Source: Rhizobium sp. NZLR1 (lineage in GTDB: Bacteria; Pseudomonadota; Alphaproteobacteria; Rhizobiales; Rhizobiaceae). Taken from it: DNA of 64,000 nt. The notes beneath the pieces are model-generated. The model ran no database searches and was not told the DNA's origin. It was given only the letters and a program-made list of their open reading frames with translations. Each line of letters opens with the position of its first letter. The first letter of the stretch is position 1. The position numbers and the translations under genes were made by a program. The stretch covers positions 186,001 to 250,000 of the forward strand of contig NZ_CP071633.1 in assembly GCF_017357385.1 (NCBI RefSeq), given 5' to 3'. Shown here one piece after another: positions 9,701-31,646 of the stretch.

Positions 9701-9951
9701 GGCCAAAACAAGGCCCAAGACAAGCATAGCCCATCCACGATTTCTGTTCTTTTCGAGAAACGGCCGTCATGGCTATGGGCTTGCCGTCGAGGCGGCGTCA
9801 TCGACCTGTCGGCTCACCACGGTGCAAGCTGAGCATCGTGGAGGGTCACCGGCCTTTTGCAGAGCAAACTCCGACGGCGTATCCTCGATTCGATGATGAC
9901 CCTTTGGCAAGTTCATCCAGGCGCTATGGTGCAGGAAAAGCAAGGGCGAGC

Positions 9952-10218
9952 ATGGGACAAGATACAAGCCACGTTCAGGAGCGGATGACGATTGTCGGTG
10001 ATCTCGAGGCTGCGTCCTTTGTCCCCTGGATCCGGCGCCATGCCGCCAAGCTCGGGCTCTCGCACAGCATATCTCATACAAGTTCGATGCGGATTGAACT
10101 CGAGCTTTCAGGACCGGAGGATTTGATCGACATGATGGAGGTGGGGTGCTCGCTGGGGCCAATCGACGTATGGGTCGAGAGCATAGAACGCACGGCGATC
10201 ATCGGAGAAACGGCCTGA
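9952..10218 (+). CDS. Acylphosphatase-fold small protein lacking catalytic residues
   Basis: 88 residues from the ATG at 9952, which has AAGGGCGAG just upstream. The stretch ERMTIVGDLEAASFVPWIRRHAAKLGL, split as a beta strand then a helix, followed by RIELELSGPEDLIDMMEVGC and GPIDVWVESIER, follows the acylphosphatase beta-alpha-beta pattern (RVQGVGFRxxVRRxAxxLGL...GxVEVxxEGP...). The phosphate-binding arginine of the GVGFR loop is replaced (SFVPW) and the catalytic asparagine of the RN motif is not seen. So it is probably not an active acylphosphatase but a binding or regulatory relative. It stands alone between gabD and the Rieske operon. Confidence 0.65.
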   Translation: MGQDTSHVQERMTIVGDLEAASFVPWIRRHAAKLGLSHSISHTSSMRIELELSGPEDLIDMMEVGCSLGPIDVWVESIERTAIIGETA

Positions 10219-10369: not shown

Positions 10370-11023
10370 ATGCCATCCGATACGACCGGCTTTTGGACGC
10401 CAGTCGCCCTTTCCCGAGATCTGCCGGCCGCAACCGTCATGCCGGCCCGGACGGCATCTGGATCGATAGCCCTCTGGCGCAGCGCTTTGGGGCGTATATC
10501 GGCATCGGCGGATCGCTGTCCGCACCGCGGCATGCGTTTGTCCCATGGCTTCGTGCGCGGCGAGGCACTTTCCTGCATCTATCACGGCTGGAGCTATGGT
10601 CAGGCCGGAAACTGTCTGCGCATTCCCGCCCATCCGGGGCTGGCGCCGCCGGAAACCATCCGTGTCGCCACCCATGACGTCGAGGAAGCGGGCAGCGTGA
10701 TCTGGGTGGCGGTCGGCACGCCCACTTCGAAGCCGCCGAGGCTTGACGGCCTCATGCCCCTGCGCTCGCTGACGGCGTTTGCCGGCACTGCCGCGATCGA
10801 GGCGGCAGCCGGCGTGAAGGCGAACCCTGACGGTCTTATCGAGATCGACGCATCCACGGGCAGCTTCTGTCTGCTATTATCCGCTCAGGAAGATGGGCAG
10901 ACGCTGATCCATGTGCTGCTGAAGGGTGACGTCGGCCCCGCCGTCGCCATCGGCGCTTCGCGGGCCGCCGAAGGCCTGCGCCGCCGGGCTGAAGGTCTTC
11001 AGAAAAAGGAGATCGCGCGGTGA
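10370..11023 (+). CDS. Stand-alone Rieske [2Fe-2S] protein of a ring-hydroxylase-type system
   Basis: 217 residues. The N-terminal 120 residues are an oxygenase-type Rieske domain: C50-P-H52, 16 residues, C69-I-Y-H72, followed by GW. The remaining part (about 135-215) lacks any iron-ligand motif and looks like a short remnant of a C-terminal domain. It would carry electrons to a mononuclear iron site in another subunit. AGGAAG precedes the ATG at 10370. Its stop overlaps the GTG start of the next gene (11020), which encodes an iron oxygenase subunit without a Rieske cluster, so the two most likely form one enzyme. No ferredoxin reductase is encoded nearby, so the electron donor must be elsewhere. 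Confidence 0.82.
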   Translation: MPSDTTGFWTPVALSRDLPAATVMPARTASGSIALWRSALGRISASADRCPHRGMRLSHGFVRGEALSCIYHGWSYGQAGNCLRIPAHPGLAPPETIRVATHDVEEAGSVIWVAVGTPTSKPPRLDGLMPLRSLTAFAGTAAIEAAAGVKANPDGLIEIDASTGSFCLLLSAQEDGQTLIHVLLKGDVGPAVAIGASRAAEGLRRRAEGLQKKEIAR

Positions 11024-11865
11024 GGATGCAGGCGATGATCGACGAATGGTATCCGGTCGGGCTTTTCAGTCAGCTTGAGAGCCCCGGTCGCAGGACGGCG
11101 TTGATGGGCGAGCCGATCGAAGTGGCGAGCGACGCCGATGGCAATGCGCGGGTAACGGCCGGCGACGGCCGTGTTCTGCCGGTGCGCGTACGTTACGGCC
11201 ATGTTTGGTCTTCCCTCGGCGAGCCGAAGAAGGATATTTTCCCGATCCCCGAGGCCGACCAGCCCGGCCGCCGTTTCGTCGACGTCGGCGTGGTGCGGGT
11301 ACGCTGCTCGCCCCTGCGCGCCGTCGAGAACTTCCTCGACATTGCCCATTTCCCCTTCGTCCACACCGACATTCTCGGTGCAGAGCCGCACACGGAGGTT
11401 CAGAACTACAAGGTCGAGATCCGCGAGGAGGAAGACGAAGTCTGGGCAACGCAGGTGAAGTTTTACCAGCCGCAGGCCTCCAAGTCGGCAAGCGGCGGGA
11501 TCACCACGGAGTATATGTACCGCGTGCCGGCACCGACCTGTTCCGTGCTCTACAAGACCTGCCCGCCGCGCCCGAGCGAATGGGATGTCATCACGCTCTT
11601 CGTGCAGCCGCTGGCCGAGGACCTGTGCGACGTCTGGCCGTGGATGGCGCTCTTCGACGACGAAACTGCGATGACCGACCTCATCCACTTCCAGCAGACG
11701 ATCTTCCTGCAAGACCGTTCGATCCTCGAAAACCAGATCCCGCGGCTCCTGCCGCTTGATCCCGGTATGGAAATCCCGACGCGGGCCGATCTGACATCGA
11801 TCGCTTACCGGCGTTGGCTCAAGCGTCACAATTATACTTACGGCGCACAGCTGGTGGCGCAATGA
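11020..11865 (+). CDS. Mononuclear non-heme iron oxygenase subunit that lacks a Rieske cluster
   Basis: 281 residues. The GTG start overlaps the previous stop and has AAGGAG eight bases upstream. Residues 1-70 retain the edges of a Rieske domain (DEWYPVGLFSQL...GEPIEV...YGHVWSSLGEP) but contain no CxH/CxxH ligands. The catalytic domain keeps D107-x2-H110-x4-H115 (ENFLDIAHFPFVHTD), with D232 (FLQDRSILE) as likely third iron ligand, as in the vanillate/NdmA-type O- and N-demethylase branch. The lost cluster is supplied by the preceding Rieske protein. The following GST and deaminase-like amidohydrolase make an N-dealkylase of a purine-like or triazine-like ring the leading idea; that is inference from context. 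Confidence 0.8.
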   Translation: MRMQAMIDEWYPVGLFSQLESPGRRTALMGEPIEVASDADGNARVTAGDGRVLPVRVRYGHVWSSLGEPKKDIFPIPEADQPGRRFVDVGVVRVRCSPLRAVENFLDIAHFPFVHTDILGAEPHTEVQNYKVEIREEEDEVWATQVKFYQPQASKSASGGITTEYMYRVPAPTCSVLYKTCPPRPSEWDVITLFVQPLAEDLCDVWPWMALFDDETAMTDLIHFQQTIFLQDRSILENQIPRLLPLDPGMEIPTRADLTSIAYRRWLKRHNYTYGAQLVAQ

Positions 11866-12524
11866 GGCTCTACGACTACATTCTTTCCCCCAGCTGCTAC
11901 AAGGTGCGCCTGATGGCGGCGCTGACCGGCGTGAAGCTGGAACTTCGTCCGGTGGATTTCCATCCCGGCGCCGAGCATCGCGGCCCCGAGCTTCTCACCC
12001 TCAATCCGGCAGGCTCCATTCCGATCCTGGAGGATGGTGATCTGATCCTGACCGAGTCGTCGGCGATTCTCGTCTATCTCGCCGCCAAGGCAGCACCCGA
12101 ATGGCTTGGTAATGGCGCGGCGCGGGAAGCGGCCCAGGTGCAGCAATGGCTGTCGTTCTCCGGCCGGCTGACGGCAAGCCTCGGCGGCGCGCGACTTCAT
12201 GAGATGCTGCTGCGGCCGGGCGATATCGGCGCGCTGCAGGCCCAGGGTATCGCCGCACTTCGCGAGCTCGAGGCCGGGCTCGTCGAGCAGGGTCTTCGCG
12301 GCGTGCGCTTTCTTGCCGCCGACCGGCCGACAATTGCCGACATCGCCTGCTTTCCCTATGTGGCGCTGGCGCCCGATGGGGGCGTGACGCTGGATGCTTA
12401 TCCCGCCATCCGGCTCTGGTCGCGGGCGCTGCGAGCCCTCGACAAGTTTATCGAAATGCCGGGTATTCACCGGCTGCACGAATTGAAGCCCGAACCTCAT
12501 ATCGAAGAACCGGGCGAGGCGTGA
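11862..12524 (+). CDS. Glutathione S-transferase family protein
   Basis: 220 residues from the ATG at 11862, overlapping the oxygenase stop (ATGA). N-terminal thioredoxin-fold domain with SPSCYKVRLMAAL, the cis-proline region NPAGSIPIL and the glutathione-binding ESSAIL; C-terminal all-helical domain with RPTIADIACFPYVAL (the N-capping box of GSTs). Alone it suggests glutathione conjugation. In the methylxanthine N7-demethylase NdmCDE of Pseudomonas putida CBB5 a GST-like protein (NdmE) holds a Rieske-less oxygenase and its Rieske partner together, and the same gene set sits here. A scaffolding role is therefore plausible but unproven. Confidence 0.88.
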   Translation: MRLYDYILSPSCYKVRLMAALTGVKLELRPVDFHPGAEHRGPELLTLNPAGSIPILEDGDLILTESSAILVYLAAKAAPEWLGNGAAREAAQVQQWLSFSGRLTASLGGARLHEMLLRPGDIGALQAQGIAALRELEAGLVEQGLRGVRFLAADRPTIADIACFPYVALAPDGGVTLDAYPAIRLWSRALRALDKFIEMPGIHRLHELKPEPHIEEPGEA

Positions 12525-12525
12525 C

Positions 12526-13905
12526 ATGACCGGCTATCTCCTGAAGAACTGCGCGGCCGTGATCGTCGACGAGGGCAAGGGGCCGGTCGTCCGTCGCCAT
12601 GTCGATCTCCTGACCGACGGTTCGGCGATTGTGGCGATCGGCGAAAATCTGGCGGCGGACGCGCTTTTCGCCGGCACGACTGTTCAGGATGCTGCCGGCT
12701 GGTTCGTCTATCCCGGCCTCGTCAACACCCATCATCATTTTTTCCAATGCTTCGTGCGCAATCGCGCCGATCTCGACTGGACGAAGCTTTCGGTCATCGA
12801 GTGGCTGGACTGGATCTACCCGATCTTTTCGCAGCTCAACGAGGAGTGTTTTTACCACTCCTCCGTCACGGCGATGGCCGAGATGATCAAACATGGCTGT
12901 ACCACGGCTTTTGACCATCAATACAATTTCCCGCGGCACGCCGGGAAGCGGCTGATCGACCGCCAGTTCGAAGCAGCCGAACTGTTCGGCATGCGCTTCC
13001 ACGCCGGCCGCGGCGGCAATACCCTGCCGAAGTCGGAGGGCTCGACCATTCCCGACGAGATGCTGGAAACGACCGATGAATTCATCGCCGACTGCGCCCG
13101 GCTGATCGACACTTACCACGATGCCAACCCCTTCAGCATGCGCCAGGTCGTGGTGGCGCCCTGCCAGCCGGTGAATTGCTATCGCGAGACCTTTGCGGAA
13201 TCGGTGGCGCTGGCGCGTGATCGCGGCGTCATGATGCACACCCATGTCGGCGAGGGCGAAAGCCCGGTCATTCATGCTCGCCATGGCATGCGCACGGTCG
13301 ATTATCTGGAAGAAGTCGGCTTTGCCGGGCCGGACACCTTCTATGCCCATTGCTGGGAGTTGAGCCACGACGAACTCAGGAAGATGGCGGCGAGCCGCAC
13401 CGGCGTGGCGCACTGCCCGGAGCCGGTCTATCTGGTCGGCGCTGAAGTCACCGACATTCCCGCCATGGCCGCCTTCGGCCTGCGCATCGGCCTTGGTTGC
13501 GACGGGGCCGCCTCCAACGACAATTCCAACCTGATGCACTGCCTGCACTCCGCCTATATGCTGCAGTGCCTGGTCTCCTCCAGCCGCGCCCATCCCGTGC
13601 CGCCGCCCGTCGATTTCCTCGGCTACGGCACGACAGGCGGTGCGAGCCTGCTCGGCAGGCGCGACATCGGCCGGCTGGCGCCCGGCATGGCAGCCGACCT
13701 GTTTGCGATTGACACGCGCCGCATGGATTATGTCGGTACGCGGCACGATCCGTTGAGCCTGATTGCCCGCGTCGGCATCGGCATGGCGACCGACATGACG
13801 ATGATCAATGGCCGCATCGTCTGGCAGAAGGGGGAATTCCCCGGTCTCGACGAGGCCAAGCTTTCTGCCGACGCCGAGGCTGCACTCGCAGCCGTGAAAT
13901 TCTAA
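12526..13905 (+). CDS. Amidohydrolase of the 8-oxoguanine deaminase / AtzB-TrzN group
   Basis: 459 residues, amidohydrolase superfamily (ATZ/TRZ branch). Metal ligands: H69-x-H71 in LVNTHHHFFQ, a histidine in MMHTHVGEGE (H238/H240, E243), H275 in YAHCWELS and D326 in LGCDGAASND. Together with the length this fits cytosolic 8-oxoguanine deaminase and hydroxyatrazine hydrolase relatives. It would remove ammonia or an amine from a purine or triazine-like ring. It follows the GST by one base and precedes a BMP-type importer, so the imported compound probably becomes its substrate after, or without, oxidation by the upstream oxygenase. The exact substrate is open. Confidence 0.88.
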   Translation: MTGYLLKNCAAVIVDEGKGPVVRRHVDLLTDGSAIVAIGENLAADALFAGTTVQDAAGWFVYPGLVNTHHHFFQCFVRNRADLDWTKLSVIEWLDWIYPIFSQLNEECFYHSSVTAMAEMIKHGCTTAFDHQYNFPRHAGKRLIDRQFEAAELFGMRFHAGRGGNTLPKSEGSTIPDEMLETTDEFIADCARLIDTYHDANPFSMRQVVVAPCQPVNCYRETFAESVALARDRGVMMHTHVGEGESPVIHARHGMRTVDYLEEVGFAGPDTFYAHCWELSHDELRKMAASRTGVAHCPEPVYLVGAEVTDIPAMAAFGLRIGLGCDGAASNDNSNLMHCLHSAYMLQCLVSSSRAHPVPPPVDFLGYGTTGGASLLGRRDIGRLAPGMAADLFAIDTRRMDYVGTRHDPLSLIARVGIGMATDMTMINGRIVWQKGEFPGLDEAKLSADAEAALAAVKF

Positions 13906-13924
13906 AAACCAAAAAAGGGAACCC

Positions 13925-15028
13925 GTGAACATGACCAAATTGACCCGCAGAAACCTGATGACGGCCGCTGCCGCCACCGGCCTTGCCGGCGCGCTCGGCC
14001 GCCGTCTTGCCTTCGCCGCCGACCAGCCGCTCGGCATCACCCTCGTCGTCCCTTCGCCGATCGGCGACGTAGGCTGGGGGCACGCCCTTGCCGCCGGTCT
14101 CGAGCCGATCAAGGCCGCTTACGGCGACAAGGTGAAGGTCACGGTGCTTGAGAATATAGCCGAAGGCCCGGACGCCGACCGCATCATGACCAAGACCGTC
14201 GCCGACGGAAATAAGTTCCTGATTGCCGGCTCCTTCGGCTATCAGAACGGCGCCCTGCAGATCGCCCGCCGTGATCCGAGCGTGACGGTCCTGCATGCCT
14301 CCGGCTTCCAGGTTGCTCCGAATTTCTCGCCGTTCGCCGCCAAATATTTCCAGGGCACCTATCTGCTCGGCATGGCCGCGGCGGCGCTTTCCAAGACCGG
14401 CAAGCTCGGCTCCGTCTCGGCCTTTGCCATTCCCGAGCTCATTACCTCGATCAACGCCTTTACGCTCGGCGCCCAGGCGGTGAAGCCGGATATCGAAGTC
14501 TCCGTCGTCTGGGTCAATTCCTGGTTCGACCCGGCCAAGGAGCAGGAGGCAGCCAAGGCGCTGATCGCGCAGAAGTGCGACGTGATCTTCTCCAATGCAC
14601 AGGACACGCCATCCGTCATCTCTGCCTGTGAGGACGCCGGCGTCTACGCCTTCAACCTCAATTCGTCGATGAAGAAGTATGCGCCGAAAACCTATCTCGG
14701 CTGCATCTCGACGGACTGGTCGCCCTTCTTCAAGGCTTCGGTCGATGCCCATCTCGCCGGTACGTTCAAGGGGGCCAATACGTTCCTCGGCGTCGCCGAC
14801 AAGGTCGTCGAAGTGGTCGACTGGAACCCAGATATTCCGGCCGACGTAATGACCAAGATCAAAGAGGTCGAGGCAAAGATCGCCGACGGCAGCTTCTCGC
14901 CCTTCACCGGGCCGATCACCAAGGCCGACGGCAGCGAAGGTGCCGCCTCGGGCGCAACCATGGCCGACCCTGAGATCATAGCCATGAATTGGCACGTCAA
15001 GGGCGTCTCGACGCCGCTGCCGAAATAA
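13925..15028 (+). CDS. BMP-family (Med/PnrA-like) ABC substrate-binding protein
   Basis: 367 residues. An N-terminal LTRRNLMTAAAATGLAG stretch is a twin-arginine-like export signal ending near AFAADQP. The mature part matches basic membrane protein (BMP) family lobes: GDVGWGHALAAGLE near the start, AGSFGYQNG, KYFQGTYLLGMAAA. BMP proteins of importers with a NupA/YufO-type double ATPase bind nucleosides or purine-like compounds. GTG start at 13925 with AAGGGAA upstream; ATG at 13931 is the alternative. It heads the transport half of the operon and is followed by an ATPase and two permeases. Confidence 0.88.
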   Translation: MNMTKLTRRNLMTAAAATGLAGALGRRLAFAADQPLGITLVVPSPIGDVGWGHALAAGLEPIKAAYGDKVKVTVLENIAEGPDADRIMTKTVADGNKFLIAGSFGYQNGALQIARRDPSVTVLHASGFQVAPNFSPFAAKYFQGTYLLGMAAAALSKTGKLGSVSAFAIPELITSINAFTLGAQAVKPDIEVSVVWVNSWFDPAKEQEAAKALIAQKCDVIFSNAQDTPSVISACEDAGVYAFNLNSSMKKYAPKTYLGCISTDWSPFFKASVDAHLAGTFKGANTFLGVADKVVEVVDWNPDIPADVMTKIKEVEAKIADGSFSPFTGPITKADGSEGAASGATMADPEIIAMNWHVKGVSTPLPK

Positions 15029-15031
15029 TTC

Positions 15032-16552
15032 ATGACCACCCCGCTCCTGTCGCTGCGTGGCATTTCGAAAAGCTACGGCCAGATCCATGCCAATCAGGCA
15101 ATCGATCTGGACGTGGCTCCGCAATCGATCCATGCGATCCTCGGAGAAAACGGGGCGGGAAAATCGACGCTGATGAAGCTGATTTACGGTGTCGAGCAGC
15201 CGGACGACGGAGATGTCGTCTGGGAAGGAACACCCTTGCGCCTCGCCTCCCCCGGGGAGGCGAGGCGCAAGGGTATCGGCATGGTCTTCCAGCACTTTTC
15301 GCTGTTCGAGACATTGACGGTCATCGAGAATATTCAGCTGGTGGTGCCGGGTCGCAAAGCTGATCTCAAGGAACGTATCCGGACGCTTGGACGGGAGTTC
15401 GGCCTCGAAGTCGATCCGCTTGCCCATGTGCATGCGCTGTCGGTCGGCGAGCGGCAACGGGTGGAGATCATCCGAAGCCTGATGACCAATCCGAAGCTGC
15501 TGATCCTTGACGAGCCCACCTCCGTCCTGCCGCCGCAACTGGTGGAGAAACTCTTCGACACCCTGCGTCGGCTGCGCGACGGCGGCGTTTCCATCCTGCT
15601 GATTTCCCACAAGCTCGAAGAAATTCGGGCGATCTGTGACCGCGCGACGATTCTGCGGAGCGGACGCGTGACCGGAGATATCGACCCGCGCGATCACGAC
15701 GCCCATGACCTTGCCCGGATGATGATCGGCCGCGATATGCCGGCACCCATCTCGGCGCTGCCGCTGTCTGGCGGGGAAAAGCGGCTGGAGATCATCGGTT
15801 TGGACCACCAGCCCGACGATCCCTTTGCGGTGCCGCTCTCCGGCCTCAGTCTCGAAGTGCGTTCCGGCGAAATCCTTGGGATCGCCGGTATTTCGGGCAA
15901 CGGCCAAAGTGAGCTTGCCGCGCTGATTTCGGGCGAGACCATGCTGGGGCGCGAACAACGCGACCGGATCTACATGATGGGAATGGATGTCGGCAGGCTC
16001 GATGCCGCCGCGCGGCGGCAGCTCGGATTTGCCTTCGTTCCGGAAGACCGGCTCGGACGCGGCGCCGTGCCGGAAATGTCGCTCGTCCTCAACAGCTTGC
16101 TGACGGCCCATCCACTCAAGCTTTTACGGCGTGGTCTCATCGAAAGGGCACGAGCGATGACATTCACCAAGGATTGTATCCGTCAGTATGATGTCCGCAC
16201 ACCCGGTCCGGATGCGGAAGCCGGCACCCTGTCCGGCGGCAACCTGCAGAAGTTCATCGTTGGCCGCGAAATCATGCTGTCTCCGAAATTGCTTTTCGTG
16301 GCGCAGCCGACCTGGGGCGTCGATGTCGGCGCTGCATCCGCCATCCGCAGCCGCCTGGTCGCATTGCGCAATCAGGGCATGGCGATCCTCGTCATTTCCG
16401 AGGAACTGGAAGAACTGTTCGAGCTCTGCGATTCCATCCAGGTGCTGCATCACGGCCGGCTCAGCCCGCCGCTCGCAACGCGGGACACGAAGCCCGAGGA
16501 GATCGGCCGATACATGATCGGGGCACATACCTCGCCCGAGAAAGTCCAGTGA
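15032..16552 (+). CDS. ABC importer ATPase with two nucleotide-binding domains (NupA/YufO-like)
   Basis: 506 residues. First NBD: Walker [10 protein letters not shown] near residue 36, Q-loop VFQHFSLF, signature ALSVGERQRVEI, Walker B LLILDEPTS. Second NBD: degenerate Walker [11 protein letters not shown], signature LSGGNLQKFIVGREI and a Walker B-like LLFVAQPTWGVD, where the usual DEP is replaced by AQP. This asymmetry is normal for carbohydrate/BMP-type ATPases. It energises the two permeases that follow. The gene carries a 41-base perfect palindrome (15233-15273) within the first NBD, noted separately. Start is three bases after the binding-protein stop. Confidence 0.9.
   Translation: MTTPLLSLRGISKSYGQIHANQAIDLDVAPQSIHAILGENGAGKSTLMKLIYGVEQPDDGDVVWEGTPLRLASPGEARRKGIGMVFQHFSLFETLTVIENIQLVVPGRKADLKERIRTLGREFGLEVDPLAHVHALSVGERQRVEIIRSLMTNPKLLILDEPTSVLPPQLVEKLFDTLRRLRDGGVSILLISHKLEEIRAICDRATILRSGRVTGDIDPRDHDAHDLARMMIGRDMPAPISALPLSGGEKRLEIIGLDHQPDDPFAVPLSGLSLEVRSGEILGIAGISGNGQSELAALISGETMLGREQRDRIYMMGMDVGRLDAAARRQLGFAFVPEDRLGRGAVPEMSLVLNSLLTAHPLKLLRRGLIERARAMTFTKDCIRQYDVRTPGPDAEAGTLSGGNLQKFIVGREIMLSPKLLFVAQPTWGVDVGAASAIRSRLVALRNQGMAILVISEELEELFELCDSIQVLHHGRLSPPLATRDTKPEEIGRYMIGAHTSPEKVQ
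15233..15273. repeat. 41-base perfect palindrome inside the ABC ATPase gene
   Basis: Left arm 15233-15252 is the exact reverse complement of 15254-15273; the single base 15253 is the centre. The arms begin CCCTTGCGCCTCGCC. It is read through in frame (TPLRLASPGEARRKG) just before the Q-loop. The encoded residues fit the family, so the hairpin is laid over working coding sequence. Confidence 0.85.
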
Positions 16553-17652
16553 TGAGCGCTTGGTTACCCGCTTCCGTTCCCACCCTGGTCCGCCGGGAGC
16601 GTGCCTCGCTGGCTGCGGCCCTCTGCGCACCCGTCATCGCGCTCGGGGGGGCGATCGCACTTAATCTTTGCCTTTATGTCTTGATGGGCCGCGACCCCGT
16701 CGCGGTCGTCTATGCGATGCTTTTCGAGCCCTTCCTCTCCTGGGCTTCATTTTCGGAAGTGCTCTTAAAGGCTGGGCCCCTCCTCCTCATCGCCCAGGGG
16801 CTGGCAATCGGCTTTCGCGCCAAGGTTTTCAATATCGGCGCCGAAGGCCAGTTTATCCTTGGGGCGATCTTCGCCTCCGCCATTCCGGTCTGGTTTCCCC
16901 AGGCGACGGGCCAGTGGATCTGGCCGGCGATGCTGCTGCTCGGCGCCATCGGCGGCGCACTCTGGGCTTCTCTTACCGCCTTCTGGCGCGTACGCCTCAA
17001 CGCCAACGAGATCCTCGTTTCGCTGATGCTGAGCCTCGTTGCCGCGCAACTGTTGAACTATCTGCTGCTCGGCCCCTGGAAGGATCCGAACGGCTTCAAT
17101 TTCCCGCAGTCGGTGATGTTCCAGTACGATGCGATGGTGCCGACCCTGATTGCCGGTACTCGTGTCAACGTCTCCTTCCTCATCACCCTCGTTTTGTCGG
17201 TTGCGGCCTGGGTCTTCATGCAGAAGAGCTTCATCGGCTATAAGCTGCAGGTCGGCGGCCTGGCGCCGAGGGCTGCCGGCTACGCCGGCTTCAGGGAAGG
17301 TTGGGCGATCTGGCTTTCGCTGCTGATCGGCGGTTTTGCTGCCGGCCTTGCCGGCGCCGCCGAAGTTGCCGGTCCGCTCGGCCAGCTGCAGCGTTCGGTC
17401 GCGAGCGGCTATGGTTATGCGGCCATCATCGTCGCCTATCTCGGCGGCCTGCATCCAATCGGCATCGTGGTCTCGGCGCTGGTCATGGCGGTCATCTATA
17501 TCGGCGGCGACAATGCCATGGTCTCGGCCGGCCTGCCGATCGCCGCCGTCCGTGTCTTCCAGGGCAGTCTGCTGCTCGCCTACCTGATCGCCGTCGCCTT
17601 CGTGCGCTACCGTCTTGAATGGCGCCGCACCGCCCAGCGGAGCCTGCCATGA
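16549..17652 (+). CDS. ABC importer permease (BMP-associated, BPD_transp_2)
   Basis: 367 residues with about ten hydrophobic segments. The segment GFRAKVFNIGAEGQFILGAIF is the hallmark of YufP/NupB-type permeases, and an EILVSLMLSLVAAQLLNY helix follows. Start is a GTG overlapping the ATPase stop (GTGA). It forms the transmembrane path with the next permease in the inner membrane. Family certain; substrate is inferred from the operon to be a purine-like or other N-heterocyclic compound. Confidence 0.9.
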   Translation: MMSAWLPASVPTLVRRERASLAAALCAPVIALGGAIALNLCLYVLMGRDPVAVVYAMLFEPFLSWASFSEVLLKAGPLLLIAQGLAIGFRAKVFNIGAEGQFILGAIFASAIPVWFPQATGQWIWPAMLLLGAIGGALWASLTAFWRVRLNANEILVSLMLSLVAAQLLNYLLLGPWKDPNGFNFPQSVMFQYDAMVPTLIAGTRVNVSFLITLVLSVAAWVFMQKSFIGYKLQVGGLAPRAAGYAGFREGWAIWLSLLIGGFAAGLAGAAEVAGPLGQLQRSVASGYGYAAIIVAYLGGLHPIGIVVSALVMAVIYIGGDNAMVSAGLPIAAVRVFQGSLLLAYLIAVAFVRYRLEWRRTAQRSLP

Positions 17653-18560
17653 ACGCCATCGAGTTCATTCTTGCCGGCATGCTTGCTGCCGCGACACCGT
17701 TTCTTCTGGCAGCACTCGGCGAACTGGTGGCCGAGCGCGCCGGTGTCCTCAACCTCGGGGTCGAGGGATTGATGGCGCTTGGCGCCGTGCTCGCCTTCAT
17801 CGTCGTTTATCATGGCGGCGGACATTTTCTCGGCTTCATCGCCGCAGGGCTCGGCAGCGCTGCCCTTTCCCTGCTTTTTGCCTTCGTCACGCTCGGGTTC
17901 CGGGCAAACCAGGTGGCCGCCGGCCTTGCCATCGGCATCCTTGGCCAGGGCCTCTCGGCGCTTTTCGGCAAGACCTATGAAAGCCTGACGGTCAAAGGTC
18001 TTTCAAAGCTTGCTCTTCCAGGGCTGTCGGAACTCCCGGTCATCGGCGGTCTTTTCGTCCAGGACATCGTCGTGTGGATTTCGCTCGCCGCGACCCTCGC
18101 TCTCTGGGCCATACTTGCCTACACCAAGCTTGGTCTCATCGTCCGGGCCGTTGGCGAGAACCCGAAGGCCGCCCACGCTATCGGCTATTCGGTCATATCG
18201 GTCCGTATCCTCGCCATCGCCTTCGGCGGCGCGATGGCCGGCTTCGCCGGCGCCTACGCGGCGGTCGTCTACACACCACTTTGGGCCGACGGAATGATCG
18301 CCGGACGCGGCTGGATCGCCGTCGCTCTGGTCGTCTTCGGGACCTGGCTCACCGGTCGCATCTTCCTCGGCGCCTGCCTCTTCGGTGCGGTCTCGCTGAT
18401 GGGGCTTGCAGCCCAGGCAAGCGGGCTGGACGTTCCCTCGCAATTGCTCTCGAGCCTGCCTTATCTCGTCACGATCATCGTGCTCGGCATCATCTCCGCC
18501 GACCGCCGCCTGCTGAAACTGAACGGCGTCGCTTCACTGGGCGAACCATTCGAGCGATAG
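17649..18560 (+). CDS. ABC importer permease, second subunit (NupC/YufQ-like)
   Basis: 303 residues from the ATG at 17649, overlapping the upstream stop (ATGA). Eight to nine hydrophobic segments; the conserved ERAGVLNLGVEGLMALGAV segment and RAVGENPKAAHAIGYSV cytoplasmic loop identify the YufQ/NupC class that pairs with YufP-like permeases. Last gene of the operon that began at 10370. Downstream is a 26-base convergent gap to the NUDIX gene. Confidence 0.9.
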   Translation: MNAIEFILAGMLAAATPFLLAALGELVAERAGVLNLGVEGLMALGAVLAFIVVYHGGGHFLGFIAAGLGSAALSLLFAFVTLGFRANQVAAGLAIGILGQGLSALFGKTYESLTVKGLSKLALPGLSELPVIGGLFVQDIVVWISLAATLALWAILAYTKLGLIVRAVGENPKAAHAIGYSVISVRILAIAFGGAMAGFAGAYAAVVYTPLWADGMIAGRGWIAVALVVFGTWLTGRIFLGACLFGAVSLMGLAAQASGLDVPSQLLSSLPYLVTIIVLGIISADRRLLKLNGVASLGEPFER

Positions 18561-25340: not shown

Positions 25341-25394
25341 AACAATACAGGCTGCTACTCCAAAAATAATATATAAAAAACAATAAATTGGGTT

Positions 25395-25411
25395 CTGGCA
25401 TGAGCATTGCA
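25395..25411 (+). promoter_or_regulatory. Sigma-54 promoter of the biuret/BMP operon
   Basis: CTGGCATGAGCATTGCA matches the sigma-54 consensus YTGGCAYG-N4-TTGCA, with -24 GG (25397-25398) and -12 GC (25409-25410) exactly ten bases apart. Predicted transcription start is near 25422, 44 bases before the gene. It fits NtrC control of a nitrogen-source operon. Confidence 0.82.
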
Positions 25412-25420
25412 TGCACTTTA
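25408..25420. repeat. Direct repeat copy 2, candidate GntR operator
   Basis: TGCATGCACTTTA, overlapping the -12 element of the sigma-54 promoter. A regulator bound here would block RNA polymerase. Confidence 0.5.
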
Positions 25421-25465
25421 CTGTCCTGTTTCGCAAACCGGCCCAGCGCCGCAAGGAGCATTCCA

Positions 25466-26593
25466 ATGACCAAACTCCTTTCCATGAACCGCCGCAATTT
25501 CCTGCAGGCTTCCGCTGCCGGAGCGCTGGCCAGCGCCATACCGGGCCTGATCGGCTCCTCCGCAGCGGCCCAAACCGCGCTGACCATCGGCTTCATCTAT
25601 GTCGGCCCCAAGGACGACTACGGCTACAACCAGGCGCATGCGGAAGGCGCCGCCGTGGTCAAGGCGCTGCCGGGCGTGACGCTGGTCGAAGAAGAGAACG
25701 TTCCGGAGACCGTCGATGTTCAGAAGACCATGGAGTCGATGATCAATCTCGACGGTGCGACCCTGCTGTTTCCGACCTCCTTCGGCTATTTCGACCCACA
25801 CATGCTGGCCATGGCCGCTAAACATCCCGACGTTCAGTTCCGCCATTGCGGCGGCCTCTGGCAGGAAGGCAAGCACCCGGCCAATACGGGCTCCTATTTC
25901 GGCTATATCTTCCAGGGCCAGTATCTGAACGGCATCGCCGCCGGCCATGCGACGAAGAGCAAGAAGATCGGCTTTGTCGCCGCCAAGCCGATCCCGCAGG
26001 TTCTGCAGAACATCAACGCCTTCCTGCTCGGCGCGCGCGCAGTCGACCCTGCTATCACCTGCCAGGTAATCTTCACCGGCGAGTGGTCGCTCGCCGTCAA
26101 GGAGGCCGAAGCCACCAACGCCTTGGTCGACCAAGGCGCCGACGTCATCACCTGCCACGTCGATAGCCCGAAAGTGGTTGTCGAGACGGCCGCGGGCCGC
26201 GGCGCCTTCGTCTGCGGCTATCACGCCAACCAGAGCCCGCTCGCTCCCGAAAAGTACCTCACGGGCGCCGAATGGGCCTGGGGCAACGTCTATGGCGACT
26301 TCGTCAAGAAGGCGCAGGCCGGCGAAAAGCTCGGCAATTTCGTGCGCGGCGGCCTGAAGGACGGCTTCGTCAAGATGAGCGCGCTCGGCCCCGGCGTGTC
26401 CGCAGAGGGCCGCAAGGCCTTCGAAGCCACGCAGGCGGACATGATGAAGGGCGGCTTCTCGGTTTTCAAGGGACCGTTGAAGGACAACAAGGGCGACACC
26501 GCCGTGGCTGCAGACAAGAGCTACGCTGAAGACGCGATCGAGCTCGAAAGCATGAATTATCTGGTCGAGGGCGTCGTCGGGTCCACATCGTAA
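25466..26593 (+). CDS. BMP-family ABC substrate-binding protein of the biuret operon
   Basis: 375 residues from the ATG at 25466, with AAGGAG eight bases upstream. Twin-arginine-like signal MNRRNFLQASAAGALASA, cleavage near AAAQTAL. BMP-family features: IGFIYVGPKDDYGYNQAHAEG, LFPTSFGYFDPHMLAMA, NTGSYFGYIFQGQYLNGIAAG, and a C-terminal DNKGDTAV loop. Paralogue of the binding protein at 13925, but in a separate operon. Because biuret hydrolase is in the same operon, biuret or triuret is the likely cargo, an unusual ligand for a BMP protein. Confidence 0.88.
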   Translation: MTKLLSMNRRNFLQASAAGALASAIPGLIGSSAAAQTALTIGFIYVGPKDDYGYNQAHAEGAAVVKALPGVTLVEEENVPETVDVQKTMESMINLDGATLLFPTSFGYFDPHMLAMAAKHPDVQFRHCGGLWQEGKHPANTGSYFGYIFQGQYLNGIAAGHATKSKKIGFVAAKPIPQVLQNINAFLLGARAVDPAITCQVIFTGEWSLAVKEAEATNALVDQGADVITCHVDSPKVVVETAAGRGAFVCGYHANQSPLAPEKYLTGAEWAWGNVYGDFVKKAQAGEKLGNFVRGGLKDGFVKMSALGPGVSAEGRKAFEATQADMMKGGFSVFKGPLKDNKGDTAVAADKSYAEDAIELESMNYLVEGVVGSTS

Positions 26594-26613
26594 ACCGCGA
26601 AGGGAGAAGCGCC

Positions 26614-27738
26614 ATGACCATCGAGGCCAATCCTGCAATATCGATCGCGGGAAAACCGGCTTCACTGCGCCCGGTCCTCGAATGGACCGCGCGGCGAGCC
26701 GAGCCGATCGTCATCGGCCTCGCGGCCATCCTGATCGGTCTTGCGCTTTTCTCCCTCTTCATCCTGGCGGTCGGCAAGTCGCCGGCCACCCTCTTCCAAC
26801 TGATGTACACCGGCGGCTTCGGCAGCTGGTTTTCGGTGCAAAACAGCCTAAGCCGTGCCGCACCCCTTCTCCTGACGGCACTCTGCGTCGCCCTGCCCGC
26901 CCGTCTCGGCCTCGTCATCATCGGCGGGGAAGGAGCGGTTGTGTTGGGCGGCGTTGCTGCCGCAGCCATGGCTCTGCCGCTCGCCGGCACCGCGCCGGTC
27001 TTCCTCACCCTCGTTCTGATGGCGATGGCGGCCATGGTGGTCGGCGGCATCTGGATCGGCCTCGCCGGGTTCCTGCGCCACTACCGCGGCGTCAACGAAA
27101 CCATATCGTCGCTGCTGCTCTCCTATATCGCCATTGCCCTGATGAACCAGTTCGTCGAAGGGGTGCTCCGCGATCCGGCAAGCCTCAACAAGCCGTCGAC
27201 CAGGCCGCTGCCGGCGGAATACATGCTCGGCAATATACCCGGCATGGACGTGCATTGGGGTCTTGTCATCGGCATCCTCGCCTGCATGGTCTCGTGGATC
27301 GTGATCGAGGCGACGAGCTACGGTTTTGCCGCCCGCATCGCCGGCGGCAACGTGCGAGCCGCCCAGATCCAGGGGCTGCCGGTCGGCAAGCTGATCGCGG
27401 GATTTACCGCACTTGCCGGCAGCTTTGCCGGTCTGGCGGGCATGATCGAAGTGGCGGCGGTGCAGGGAAGTGCCAATGCTTCGCTTGCGGCGGGCTACGG
27501 TTATACCGGCATCCTCGTCGCCTTCCTCGCCAGGCACAATCCGCTGGCGATCATTCCAGTGGCGATCCTGCTCGGCGGCATCGAAGCCTCGGGCGGCCTC
27601 ATCCAGCGGCGCATGGGCCTGCCGGATGCGACCGTTCTGGTGCTGCAGGGAACGCTCTTCATCGTTATTCTTTTCTGCGAGACATTCTACGGCCGCTTTA
27701 AGATCTTCAATCCCGATCTCTGGAAAAGGAGCCTCTGA
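26614..27738 (+). CDS. ABC importer permease (BMP type) of the biuret operon
   Basis: 374 residues, about ten hydrophobic segments. LFQLMYTGGFGSWFSVQNSL near residue 55-75 and FLRHYRGVNETISSLLLSYIAIAL are those of YufP-like permeases. In the place of the usual NIGAEGQ there is VIIGGEGAVVLGGVAAAAM. Paralogue of the permease at 16549. AAGGGAG precedes the ATG. Stop overlaps the next ATG by one base (TGATGG). Confidence 0.88.
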   Translation: MTIEANPAISIAGKPASLRPVLEWTARRAEPIVIGLAAILIGLALFSLFILAVGKSPATLFQLMYTGGFGSWFSVQNSLSRAAPLLLTALCVALPARLGLVIIGGEGAVVLGGVAAAAMALPLAGTAPVFLTLVLMAMAAMVVGGIWIGLAGFLRHYRGVNETISSLLLSYIAIALMNQFVEGVLRDPASLNKPSTRPLPAEYMLGNIPGMDVHWGLVIGILACMVSWIVIEATSYGFAARIAGGNVRAAQIQGLPVGKLIAGFTALAGSFAGLAGMIEVAAVQGSANASLAAGYGYTGILVAFLARHNPLAIIPVAILLGGIEASGGLIQRRMGLPDATVLVLQGTLFIVILFCETFYGRFKIFNPDLWKRSL

Positions 27739-28664
27739 TGGAAGAGACAGGCATCGGCATCTGGGGCGTGCCGCTGGCGATCTTTGCAGGCGCCATCCGC
27801 GTTTCCACCCCGTTCATCTTCGTTAGCCTCGGCGAGACGATCACCGAACGCTCCGGCCGCATCAATCTCGGCCTGGAAGGCACGCTGGTCTTCGGCGCCA
27901 TGACGGCTTATGCGGTGGCCGTCATGACTGGCTCACCGACCCTCGGCGTGGTGGCCGCGATGATGGCCGGCGCGATCTTCGGCGTCATCCACGGCTGGAT
28001 CTGCAAATTCCCCAAGGTCAATGACATCGCCATCGGCATTGCGATGATGCAGTTCGGTCTCGGCATGGCGTTCTTCCTCGGCAAATCCTTCATTCAACCC
28101 GTGGCGCCGAAACTGCCCTCGATCGCGCTCGGAGGCTGGTCGAGCATGCCGCAGCTACAGGCGGCGCTCAATATCAACGTGCTGTTCTTCATCGGCGCCG
28201 CACTTGCTCTCTTCCTGTTCTGGGCCTTCAAGAACACCCGCATCGGTCTGATCCTGCGCGTCGTCGGCGATAGCACCGACGCGGCCCGGGCCATGGGCAT
28301 CGACCCTGACCGGGTTCGCCTGCTGGCGACGGCCGCGGGCGGCTCGCTGGCGGCGATCGGCGGCGCCTACCTTTCGCTCTATTATCCGGGCTCGTGGAAC
28401 GAAGGCATCTCGTCGGGTCAGGGCCTGATGGCCGTGGCCCTAGTGATCTTCGCGCGCTGGAACCCAATCGGCTGCTTCCTCGCCGCCCTGCTTTTCGGCG
28501 GTGCCGGCGCGCTCGGCCCGGCGCTGCAATCGGTCGGCGTCACACAAGGCTACTACCTCTTCTACGCTGCCCCTTATGTCCTCACCCTCATCATCCTGAT
28601 TGCCACCTCCTCGCCCACCCGCTCGCTCGCCGGTGCGCCGGGCGCGCTGTCGCTGACGAAATAA
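27738..28664 (+). CDS. ABC importer permease, second subunit, of the biuret operon
   Basis: 308 residues with eight to nine hydrophobic segments. [23 protein letters not shown] is the conserved YufQ-class motif, and [21 protein letters not shown] the conserved cytoplasmic loop. Overlaps the preceding gene by one base. Pairs with the permease at 26614 in the inner membrane. Confidence 0.88.
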
Positions 28665-28729
28665 CGGAGCCTTGTGATGAACGGACTTGGCGGTCTCAAC
28701 AAATCTGCCGCGGAATAGGAGAGAGAATG

Positions 28730-29431
28730 ATGGACGCGATGGTCGAAACCAAAGGGCGTTTTATCGACGCCGATCCGTATCCGTGGCCCTATAACGGCGC
28801 TCTCAGGCCTGATAACACCGCCCTCATCATCATCGACATGCAGACGGATTTCTGTGGCAAAGGCGGCTATGTCGACCACATGGGCTACGACCTGTCGCTG
28901 GTGCAGGCGCCGATCGAACCCATCAAACGCGTGCTTGCCGCCATGCGGGCCAAGGGCTACCACATCATCCATACGCGCGAGGGCCATCGCCCCGACCTCG
29001 CCGATCTGCCGGCCAACAAACGCTGGCGCTCGCGGCGGATCGGCGCCGGCATAGGGGATCCCGGCCCCTGCGGCCGCATCCTGACGCGTGGCGAACCCGG
29101 CTGGGACATCATCCCCGAACTCTACCCGACCGAAGGCGAGACAATCATCGACAAGCCCGGCAAGGGTTCGTTCTGCGCCACCGATCTTGAGCTCATCCTC
29201 AACCAGAAGCGCATCGAGAACATCATCCTCACGGGAATCACCACCGATGTCTGCGTCTCGACGACGATGCGCGAGGCGAACGACCGCGGCTACGAATGCC
29301 TGCTGCTGGAGGACTGCTGTGGGGCGACGGACTATGGAAACCACCTCGCCGCCATCAAGATGGTGAAGATGCAGGGCGGCGTCTTCGGCTCGGTCTCCAA
29401 TTCCGAAACCTTTGTGAGCCAGCTGTCATGA
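28730..29431 (+). CDS. biuH: Biuret hydrolase (isochorismatase-fold cysteine hydrolase)
   Basis: 233 residues. It hydrolyses biuret to allophanate and ammonia. Counting from the ATG at 28730, the catalytic triad falls at D36 (IIIDMQTDF), K142 (DKPGKGSF) and C175 (TDVCVSTT), with Q215 (KMQGG). These are the positions I recall as published for the R. leguminosarum bv. viciae 3841 enzyme, and the flanking sequence looks nearly the same from memory. An ATG one codon earlier (28727) is possible; AGGAGAG lies upstream. It sits inside a BMP-type importer operon, and its stop overlaps the ATPase ATG. Allophanate hydrolase, needed for the next step, is not in the window. Confidence 0.9.
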
Positions 29432-30978
29432 GCACCGTTCGCGACACGCCCCTTCCCAAGGCCGGCAAGGCGATCGGTATCGATACGCTCGGCATGACCA
29501 TGCGCTTCGGCAGCTTTACCGCGCTCGACAACGTCTCGATCGCCGTTCCGGCCGGCTCTTTTCACGCGCTTCTCGGCGAAAACGGCGCCGGCAAGTCGAC
29601 GCTTGTCAAATGCATCATGGGCTTCTATCACGCCACGTCAGGCTCGCTGTCGGTCGACGGCCGCGAGGTAGCGATCGGCTCACCCAAGGATGCCGCGGCC
29701 TACGGGCTCGGCATGGTCTACCAGCATTTCACACTGGTTCCCTCTCTGACCGGCGCGGAAAACCTGGTCATCAGCCGTGCCGAAGTACCCGCCGTGATCA
29801 ACTGGGCGGGGGAACGCAAGGATCTGGCGGGTTTCATGGAGCGCATGCCGTTCAAGATTCCGCTGGACAGGCCGGTGAGCCAGCTTGCCGCCGGCGAAAA
29901 ACAGAAGCTCGAAATCGTCAAGCAGCTTTATCTCGGCCGCTCCTTCCTCGTTCTCGACGAGCCGACCTCGGTGCTGACGCCGGCGGAGGCAGACGAGATG
30001 CTCGGCATCGTGCGCGGGATGACCGAGCGCGGCGAACTCACCGTGCTGATGATTTCTCACAAATTCCACGAAGTGACGAAATTCGCCGATGCCGTCTCGA
30101 TCCTGCGGCGCGGCAAACTGGTCGGCGCCGGCAAGGTCGGTGAGCTCTCCACATCAGATATGGCGGCGATGATGATCGGCGACGTCAAGCTCGCCGAACT
30201 CGACAGCCGCCTGCCGGTGGCGGAAGCGGCAAGGCCGGTGCTGTCCGTAAGCCGGGTGAAAGCCCCGGATCGTTCCGGCCTGAAAACGATCGAAATCGAC
30301 GAGCTTACGGTGCGCTCCGGCGAGATCGTCGGCATCGCCGGCATATCGGGCAATGGCCAGAAGGAACTGACGGAAATCCTCGCCGGCCAGCGCCCGACCG
30401 ATAGCGGCCAGGTCATGGTCAATGGCGAGGCTTACGGCGCAACCCGCGACGAGACCCGCAAGAACAGGGTGCGTTTCATCCCCGAGGAGCCGTTGCAGAA
30501 TGCCTGCGCGCCGAAGATGACGGTGAGCGAGAACCTTGCGTTCCGCACCTTCGACTTGAAGCCGGACGGCAAGGACGCGATCTGGTTGAACAGGGCCAGC
30601 ATGAAGAAGCGTGCGTCGGCGCTGATCTCCGACTTCAAGGTCAGGACCGCCTCTTCCTCCTCGCCGATTGCAGCGCTTTCAGGCGGCAACGTGCAGCGGG
30701 CGGTGCTCGCCCGCGAGCTGACCGGCGACGTCGATCTGCTCATCGTCTCCAACCCGTGTTTCGGCCTCGATTTCTCGGCCGTTGCCGAAATCCGCGCCCG
30801 CATCATGAAGGCGCGCAATTTGGGTGCTGCCGTGCTGCTGCTCTCCGAAGACCTCGACGAACTGCTCGAAATGTCCGATCGCATCATGGTCATTTCGGAA
30901 GGCAGGCTGGTTTACGAGACACCGGCGCGTTCGGCCGATATCGGCGTGATCGGCGCCCACATGGCGGGGCATCACTGA
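29428..30978 (+). CDS. ABC importer ATPase with two NBDs, biuret operon
   Basis: 516 residues from the ATG at 29428 (ATGA overlap with biuH). First NBD: Walker [11 protein letters not shown]-loop [10 protein letters not shown], signature [12 protein letters not shown], Walker [10 protein letters not shown]. Second [13 protein letters not shown] in place of Walker A, signature [16 protein letters not shown], and a degenerate Walker [13 protein letters not shown]. Paralogue of the ATPase at 15032. It powers permeases 26614 and 27738. Confidence 0.9.
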
Positions 30979-31646
30979 TGGTGGGGATTAAAGCCGAACC
31001 TTTCGCCTTTCCGGTGAGGCACGATGAACTCGCCCTTATCGTCATCGACATGCAGCGCGATTTCGCCGAAGCCGGCGGCTTCGGTGCAAGCCTTGGTAAC
31101 GATGTCAGCCGCATCACCCGCATCGTGCCTGATGTCAAACGCCTGATCCAGGGCTTCCGCAATGCCGGCCTGCCTGTGATCCATACGATGGAGTGCCACC
31201 GGCCGGACCTGTCCGACCTGCCGCCGGCGAAACGCGACCGCGGCAATCCTTCGCTCAGGATCGGCGACGAAGGCCTGATGGGCCGCATCCTGATCTCAGG
31301 CGAACCCGGCACGGCGATTCTTCCGGAACTTGCTCCTGTGAAGGGGGAAATCATCATCGAAAAACCCGGCAAGGGCGCCTTCTACGCTACCGAGCTTGGC
31401 GCCATGTTGCAGCAGAAGGGCATCAGTCAGCTCGTCTTTGCCGGCGTCACCACCGAAGTCTGCGTGCAGACGACCATGCGCGAAGCAAACGACCGCGGCT
31501 ATGAATGCCTGCTCGCCGAGGAGGCGACGGAAAGCTATTTCCCCGAATTCAAAGCCGCAGCCATCGCCATGATCCGCGCCCAGGGCGCTATCGTCGGCTG
31601 GACCGCCCATGTCGACGACATTCTGGAAAGCATTGCCAATGCCTGA
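30978..31646 (+). CDS. Isochorismatase-fold cysteine hydrolase, possible triuret hydrolase
   Basis: 222 residues. The catalytic triad is D24 (VIDMQRDFA), K129 (EKPGKGAF) and C162 (TTEVCVQTT), so the enzyme should be active on an amide or imide. It is clearly related to the nearby BiuH but distinct (E160 rather than D before VC, and different loops). One-base overlap with the ATPase gene and eight-base overlap with the following cupin gene. Triuret hydrolase TrtA, described from Herbaspirillum, belongs to this fold and feeds biuret to BiuH. That makes triuret a reasonable substrate guess; other ureides such as ureidoacrylate (RutB-like) are possible. Confidence 0.82.
   Translation: MVGIKAEPFAFPVRHDELALIVIDMQRDFAEAGGFGASLGNDVSRITRIVPDVKRLIQGFRNAGLPVIHTMECHRPDLSDLPPAKRDRGNPSLRIGDEGLMGRILISGEPGTAILPELAPVKGEIIIEKPGKGAFYATELGAMLQQKGISQLVFAGVTTEVCVQTTMREANDRGYECLLAEEATESYFPEFKAAAIAMIRAQGAIVGWTAHVDDILESIANA

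Follow-up and report, generated by a model that had tools for sequence, protein, structure and literature searches.

Gene organization of the locus

The analyzed window, a 64,000-nt stretch of the Rhizobium sp. NZLR1 genome, contains an apparent operon of eight genes (positions 10370-18560) that starts with a Rieske protein gene and ends with the second of two ABC transporter permease genes (Table 1). The first three genes are tightly coupled: with the GTG start taken for Cat, the Rsk-Cat and Cat-GST junctions are overlaps of 4 bases each, the latter overlap having already been noticed in a first-pass annotation of this DNA. In related loci, with gaps counted up to where the profile match begins, the median distance is 5 bases between the Rieske and Cat genes (89 same-strand pairs) and -1 between the Cat and GST genes (90 pairs). 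The Rieske gene is encoded on the strand opposite to the Cat gene in 19 of the 154 classified loci, 15 of them GST-adjacent and 4 without a GST gene in the stretch; thus, the two genes do not always form one operon. Directly upstream of the operon, a small ORF (9769-10218) occupies the place that in Rhizobium sp. C104 is held by an annotated acylphosphatase gene.

Table 1. Genes of the apparent operon, with the features of the two oxygenase-like products
Gene product	Position	Strand	Length	Similarity and features
Rieske subunit (Rsk)	10370..11023	+	217 aa	Similar to the NdmD N-terminus, unfused; Rieske [2Fe-2S] site C50/H52/C69/H72; predicted shrunken, ligand-less catalytic-domain fold at about residues 125-217
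Catalytic subunit (Cat)	11020..11865	+	281 aa	NdmC-like; GTG start, later ATG at 11026; putative mononuclear iron site H110/H115 and D232; presumed bridging Asp D107; N-terminal Rieske-fold shell with cluster loops deleted
GST-like subunit	11862..12524	+	220 aa	NdmE-like; PF02798, 1.2e-16
Amidohydrolase, probable purine-type deaminase	12526..13905	+		PRK08203, 368 bits; PDB 7ww2, 1.6e-83; 3hpa, 2.1e-81
BMP/PnrA-type substrate-binding protein	13925..15028	+		PF02608, 2.7e-40
ABC transporter ATPase	15032..16552	+		PF00005, 1.2e-46
ABC transporter permease 1	16549..17652	+		PF02653, 7.5e-38
ABC transporter permease 2	17619..18560	+		PF02653, 4.8e-31

Division of the metal centres between two proteins

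In Pfam, Rsk matches a Rieske domain (PF00355, 1.5e-18, residues 9-91) and no catalytic domain, and Cat matches VanA_C (PF19112, 6.9e-20, residues 94-269) and no Rieske domain. The complete Rieske site previously read in Rsk is identical in all 99 dereplicated homologues, fused ones included, and the catalytic iron motif is missing from this protein, as had been proposed. The N-terminus of Cat, described at first pass as a Rieske remnant with no ligands, is indeed recognizable as a Rieske fold. Residues H110, H115, D232, and D107 of Cat are each identical in 61 of 61 homologues. The catalytic histidines are H110 and H115, as originally assigned, and the third ligand is most likely D232; D107, formerly counted in the triad, we take to be the bridging Asp that lies beside the neighbouring Rieske site and outside the facial triad.

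The same division is observed throughout the analyzed loci. The Rieske motif is present in 139 of 139 Rieske proteins and in none of the 156 catalytic proteins, whereas the D-x2-H-x3-5-H motif occurs in 155 of the 156 catalytic proteins (the single exception is cut by a contig end) and in none of the 139 Rieske proteins. Both motifs are found in all 11 full-length oxygenases from the same loci. Since the Rieske and full-length sets were chosen by profile matches to those domains, the absences are more telling than the presences. The two sites that a classical Rieske oxygenase holds on one polypeptide are therefore distributed over two, and Cat appears to resemble NdmC in combining a mononuclear iron site with the lack of a Rieske cluster.

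Rsk had been regarded as a small separate Rieske part. It is unfused, but a shrunken catalytic-domain fold lacking the two-His motif is predicted for its last ~90 residues, so it probably comprises more than a Rieske domain. The predicted models of both Rsk and Cat align with full-length oxygenases almost from end to end, so that each would adopt the overall alpha-subunit fold of a classical single-chain enzyme. Comparison of the Rsk C-terminus with catalytic domains by hhalign gave a weak result (score 19, probability 8%; 0.8% for the catalytic half alone); among 40 column-permuted controls, 39 scored at most 6.9 and one was an unexplained outlier at 127. In the alignments of 48 rows only the N-terminal 41 columns were aligned, and the 11/13-row comparison reached 96% over both parts together. 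As this sequence-only test is weak, our reading of the C-terminus rests on the predicted fold.

Phylogenetic spread and pairing of the two subunits

A protein search with Cat returned 3016 homologues at E <= 0.001; the 120 listed among them are 253-296 aa long and match PF19112 only. In genome searches, with full-length matches included, Cat had matches in 17 of 385 genomes sampled from the class at E <= 1e-10; at E <= 1e-30, matches came from 24 of 398 phylum genomes and from 50 of 297 order genomes, and in the order sample this threshold covers 21 of the 122 genera, a few of them by full-length matches only. The phylum and order searches show a clear gap between the Cat family (E of about 1e-95 or lower) and full-length oxygenases (about 1e-65 or higher). 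A quick tree built from 67 catalytic domains separates 62 that are Rieske-less from 5 that belong to full-length proteins, with an SH-aLRT support of 100; the catalytic ORF of locus L197, which is N-terminally short, has a long branch. The Rhizobium sp. RCAM05350 locus was left out of the tree and of the counts of catalytic motifs on account of its broken frames: its catalytic, GST, hydrolase, and ABC genes are each split into several frames, possibly by assembly errors.

The Cat and Rieske-subunit families occur in identical sets of 46 of the 297 genomes of the order, 251 genomes having neither (Fisher p ~4e-55, with related genomes being non-independent and scoring limited to the 8 or 10 top first-look candidates of each genome). 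These sets were obtained by subtracting full-length proteins, recognized by score and frame length, from 50 Cat genomes (4 subtracted) and 49 Rieske genomes (3 subtracted). The Rieske count was made with an alignment of unfused proteins only; an order-wide search with a fusion-including alignment was dominated by reductases and was used for fusions only. The 11 fetched Cat loci without a nearby Rieske gene represent 9 genomes, and all nine carry a family Rieske gene elsewhere. Among the 13 genomes with two Cat genes, 12 have one family Rieske gene and one has two; thus, a Rieske subunit may be shared between Cat proteins.

The 154 classified loci come from overlapping sources with some genomes repeated, and the counts for their four sets are not independent: (i) 9 loci comprise 7 unfused, 1 fused, and 1 whose fetched stretch lacks a Rieske gene, (ii) 5 plasmid loci comprise 2 unfused and 3 fused, (iii) the best 80 of 532 related loci comprise 77 unfused and 3 without a Rieske gene, and (iv) 60 loci from the genome search comprise 33 unfused, 15 fused, 7 without a Rieske gene, and 5 full-length unsplit. 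A GST gene accompanies 7 of 7, 2 of 2, 74 of 77, and 32 of 33 unfused loci in these sets, respectively.

Fusions of the Rieske part to an NdmD-like reductase occur in 15 of the 46 genomes. On the quick tree, in which 30 of 64 inner branches are open, at least three changes between the fused and unfused states are needed. All 15 fusions match most of the unfused-only profile (the matches range from residues 3-181 to residues 6-214 of its 217), so their N-termini look like the same whole-oxygenase-like unit as Rsk. Taken together, these data make a strong case for the anatomy, antiquity, and pairing of the split oxygenase.

At seven loci (L042, L187-L189, and L204-L206), two different NdmC-like catalytic genes lie close by a single Rieske-reductase fusion and a GST gene, which suggests either that two specificities share an electron donor or that the catalytic oligomer is mixed.

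Relationship to NdmCDE and other Rieske oxygenases

The closest known system is NdmCDE, the 7-methylxanthine N7-demethylase of Pseudomonas putida CBB5, in which a Rieske-less catalytic subunit likewise depends on the Rieske centre of another protein and is accompanied by a GST-like third subunit. We judged this likeness through NdmCDE-like plasmid clusters of P. putida and S. meliloti rather than through the CBB5 sequences themselves. These clusters encode a Rieske-less Cat that is ~45% identical to the window Cat, a Rieske-reductase fusion of 585-588 aa, and a GST that is ~39-40% identical to the window GST (39% over 205 aa for P. putida Tik1); the Tik1 fusion matches the solved NdmD domain (6icm_D, 8.5e-35). 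The kinship with NdmCDE suggested in the first-pass annotation is thereby borne out, and what was there called a possible new type of complex is better described as a variant of the NdmCDE kind. The window system differs in having a Rieske protein that carries no fused FMN/NADH/plant-type-ferredoxin reductase.

The nearest solved relatives of both Rsk and Cat by sequence are the saxitoxin-pathway oxygenases SxtT and GxtA, which are single chains bearing both metal sites. The same holds for NdmA, NdmB, and dicamba monooxygenase, three enzymes that catalyze N- or O-demethylation and whose fold the modelled pair resembles. HpxD, a subunit of the Mo-independent xanthine hydroxylase and a named Rieske subunit of purine catabolism, is found among the distant plasmid matches (~30% identity over ~60% of the query). 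The nearest full-length relatives found are five unsplit oxygenases that share the ENFLD-x2-HF-x-FVH motif and the transporter type with the window system and have no GST match in the fetched stretch; possibly, they are a living picture of the enzyme before the split.

According to a passage of a 2026 paper, the NdmCDE complex is still without a solved structure (PMC13237722). Among open-licence PMC papers we found none that describes an unfused Rieske partner, or that treats 7-methylguanine together with Rieske or 7-methylxanthine.

Source of electrons

No NdmD-like reductase gene was found in the window, where an NdmD-like query matches the Rieske part only. In the fetched flanks of the 119 unfused loci, a search that covers NdmD-type reductases and would miss other types flagged four loci. 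At three of these (L197, L235, and L242, the last on the opposite strand) the reductase gene beside the Rieske gene is convincing, and the weak, partial match at L108 was left uncounted. We rejected the idea of a reductase hidden in the operon, since an NdmD-like match is absent from the window and from most loci. Among three reductase-region matches in the window's genome, none is evidently dedicated to this system: one, with a DmmA-like domain, is read from its sequence context as part of a dimethylamine-monooxygenase cluster, and the other two as a MOSC-like fusion and a protein adjoining a GbcA-like oxygenase. The reductase fusions in 15 of 46 genomes show an electron path into the Rieske part.

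At locus L235 (6109-10354), genes for a full-length Rieske oxygenase, an unfused reductase, a Rieske subunit, Cat, and GST follow one another on a single strand, an arrangement that resembles the caffeine-pathway demethylase set with its shared NdmD, here with all parts unfused.

Genomic neighbourhood and candidate substrate

The two large sets comprise 76 and 30 unfused loci. Of these, 65 and 16, respectively, have three or more of the four transporter genes, and 63 and 12 have the amidohydrolase gene. The transporter accompanies only 5 of 15 fused loci and all five unsplit ones. The window amidohydrolase scores 368.3 bits against the 8-oxoguanine deaminase model PRK08203, below its cut-off of 532; its nearest chain is named 8-oxoguanine deaminase / hydroxydechloroatrazine ethylaminohydrolase, and it also matches triazine hydrolase and 2paj. 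Among 59 dereplicated loci, in which one representative of each recurring neighbour gene was scanned, we found a xanthine-dehydrogenase-like gene at 6, a small gene with a cytidine-deaminase domain at 3, and an amidohydrolase read as guanine-deaminase-like at 3. In addition, guaD is annotated at the R. tumorigenes locus, a xanthine dehydrogenase family gene lies near the S. meliloti cluster, and HpxO and nucleobase symporter genes adjoin both P. putida clusters. Because the transporter type, the deaminase, and some of the recurring neighbours point to purines, we propose, with moderate confidence and by analogy with the NdmCDE kin, N-demethylation of methyl-purines as the function, a methylated purine being a plausible substrate.

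Proposed mechanism and alternative explanations

The three genes probably encode a heteromeric Rieske non-haem iron oxygenase composed of two diverged subunits with complementary losses and a GST-like third subunit. This reading agrees with the complementary metal sites, the matching genome distribution, the tight gene coupling, and the frequent purine-type neighbours, as well as with the predicted folds. A physical complex is likely, and so is the following electron path. A reductase encoded elsewhere would transfer electrons from NAD(P)H to the Rieske cluster of Rsk, from where they would cross the subunit interface, via D107 beside a Rieske-ligand His, to the mononuclear iron of Cat, where O2 would be activated. 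Such an inter-subunit route is normal for Rieske oxygenases, where neighbouring subunits are usually identical and each acts as both donor and acceptor; here the two roles would fall to different polypeptides. The most likely role of the GST is to hold Rsk and Cat together, by analogy with the role proposed for NdmE. The BMP-type transporter would bring in the substrate, and the amidohydrolase would deaminate a related base. The likeliest reaction would be the oxidative N-demethylation of methylated purines, such as a route from 7-methylguanine via 7-methylxanthine to xanthine and formaldehyde.

Rieske ferredoxins commonly occur as stand-alone proteins, and Rsk could be a general ferredoxin that merely neighbours a Cat protein using other donors, a view to which its weak matches to MocE-family and NirD models and the 19 loci with opposite strands would lend some weight. 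It is improbable given that neither family occurs alone in any of the 297 genomes, that the genes overlap in the window, and that NdmD-type fusions exist; moreover, Rsk scores 19.1 bits against TIGR02377 (cut-off 136.15), and its predicted oxygenase-like C-terminal fold distinguishes it from the lone Rieske fold of the MocE / Rieske ferredoxin family. That Cat is a full-length oxygenase recently damaged by deletion of its Rieske domain is scarcely conceivable. Its N-terminal Rieske-fold remnant is what such a deletion could leave behind, but the uniform length and domain content of the listed homologues argue against it, and a recent deletion or pseudogene is ruled out by the single well-supported clade spread over many families with all metal ligands kept. 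The early concern that the loss might be recent is thus dispelled, since the Rieske-less form is one clade across many genera.

The split oxygenase might instead act on an s-triazine, hydantoin, pterin, or other N-heterocycle, or hydroxylate a ring. This is a real possibility, if somewhat short of an even chance: the kin of the operon hydrolase include triazine-type enzymes, a biuret-amidohydrolase-like gene lies ~12 kb downstream beside a second BMP transporter, and the nearest solved relatives of both subunits belong to the saxitoxin pathway. Against it stand the purine-related genes that recur beside some relatives (xanthine-dehydrogenase-like, deaminase-like, HpxO, and nucleobase symporter) and NdmA, the next nearest solved relative of both proteins. 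The GST, finally, might be catalytic rather than a scaffold, for instance by using glutathione to trap formaldehyde or a reactive product or as a source of electrons. The Cys/Ser positions of its N-terminal loop are largely kept (C12 in 106 and S9 in 109 of 130 sequences), and the window has no NdmD-like reductase; as these counts did not reveal a degenerate GST, we do not claim the scaffold role from sequence. A catalytic GST is nonetheless unlikely, since C12 is replaced in 24 of the 130 and the passages on NdmE in two papers propose it to be non-catalytic and structural (PMC13237722, PMC4408171).

Implications of the proposed split oxygenase and its relatives

The heteromeric oxygenase proposed here seems to be a simpler cousin of the caffeine-demethylating NdmCDE complex. 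Because the donor and acceptor roles appear to sit on different chains, the electron hop would be one-way, and each metal site would be separately mutable and measurable (by EPR of the cluster alone and of the iron site alone). Without the large reductase, the unfused assembly may be an easier structural target than NdmCDE. The two predicted whole-oxygenase folds offer a structural insight that may apply to NdmCDE too, and the whole-oxygenase-like Rsk unit may have a bearing on the presence of an 'extra' Rieske cluster in NdmD.

More tentatively, the pair may be viewed as two complementary half-dead paralogues, with Rsk as an exchangeable electron-delivery subunit for more than one Cat per cell that is fed by a shared house-keeping reductase, with NdmCDE as the derived or parallel reductase-fused case, and with N-methyl cleavage of guanines and xanthines from RNA turnover as the function; we found no description of such a salvage route in open-licence PMC papers. 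If the methyl-purine reading is true, rhizobia and roseobacters gain a route for recycling methylated bases.

Elsewhere in the window, positions 25388-31646 hold a second BMP/permease/ABC gene set followed by the biuret-amidohydrolase-like gene (NF050097, 239 bits, below the cut-off of 370), hinting at an island for scavenging nitrogen from N-heterocycles or biuret.
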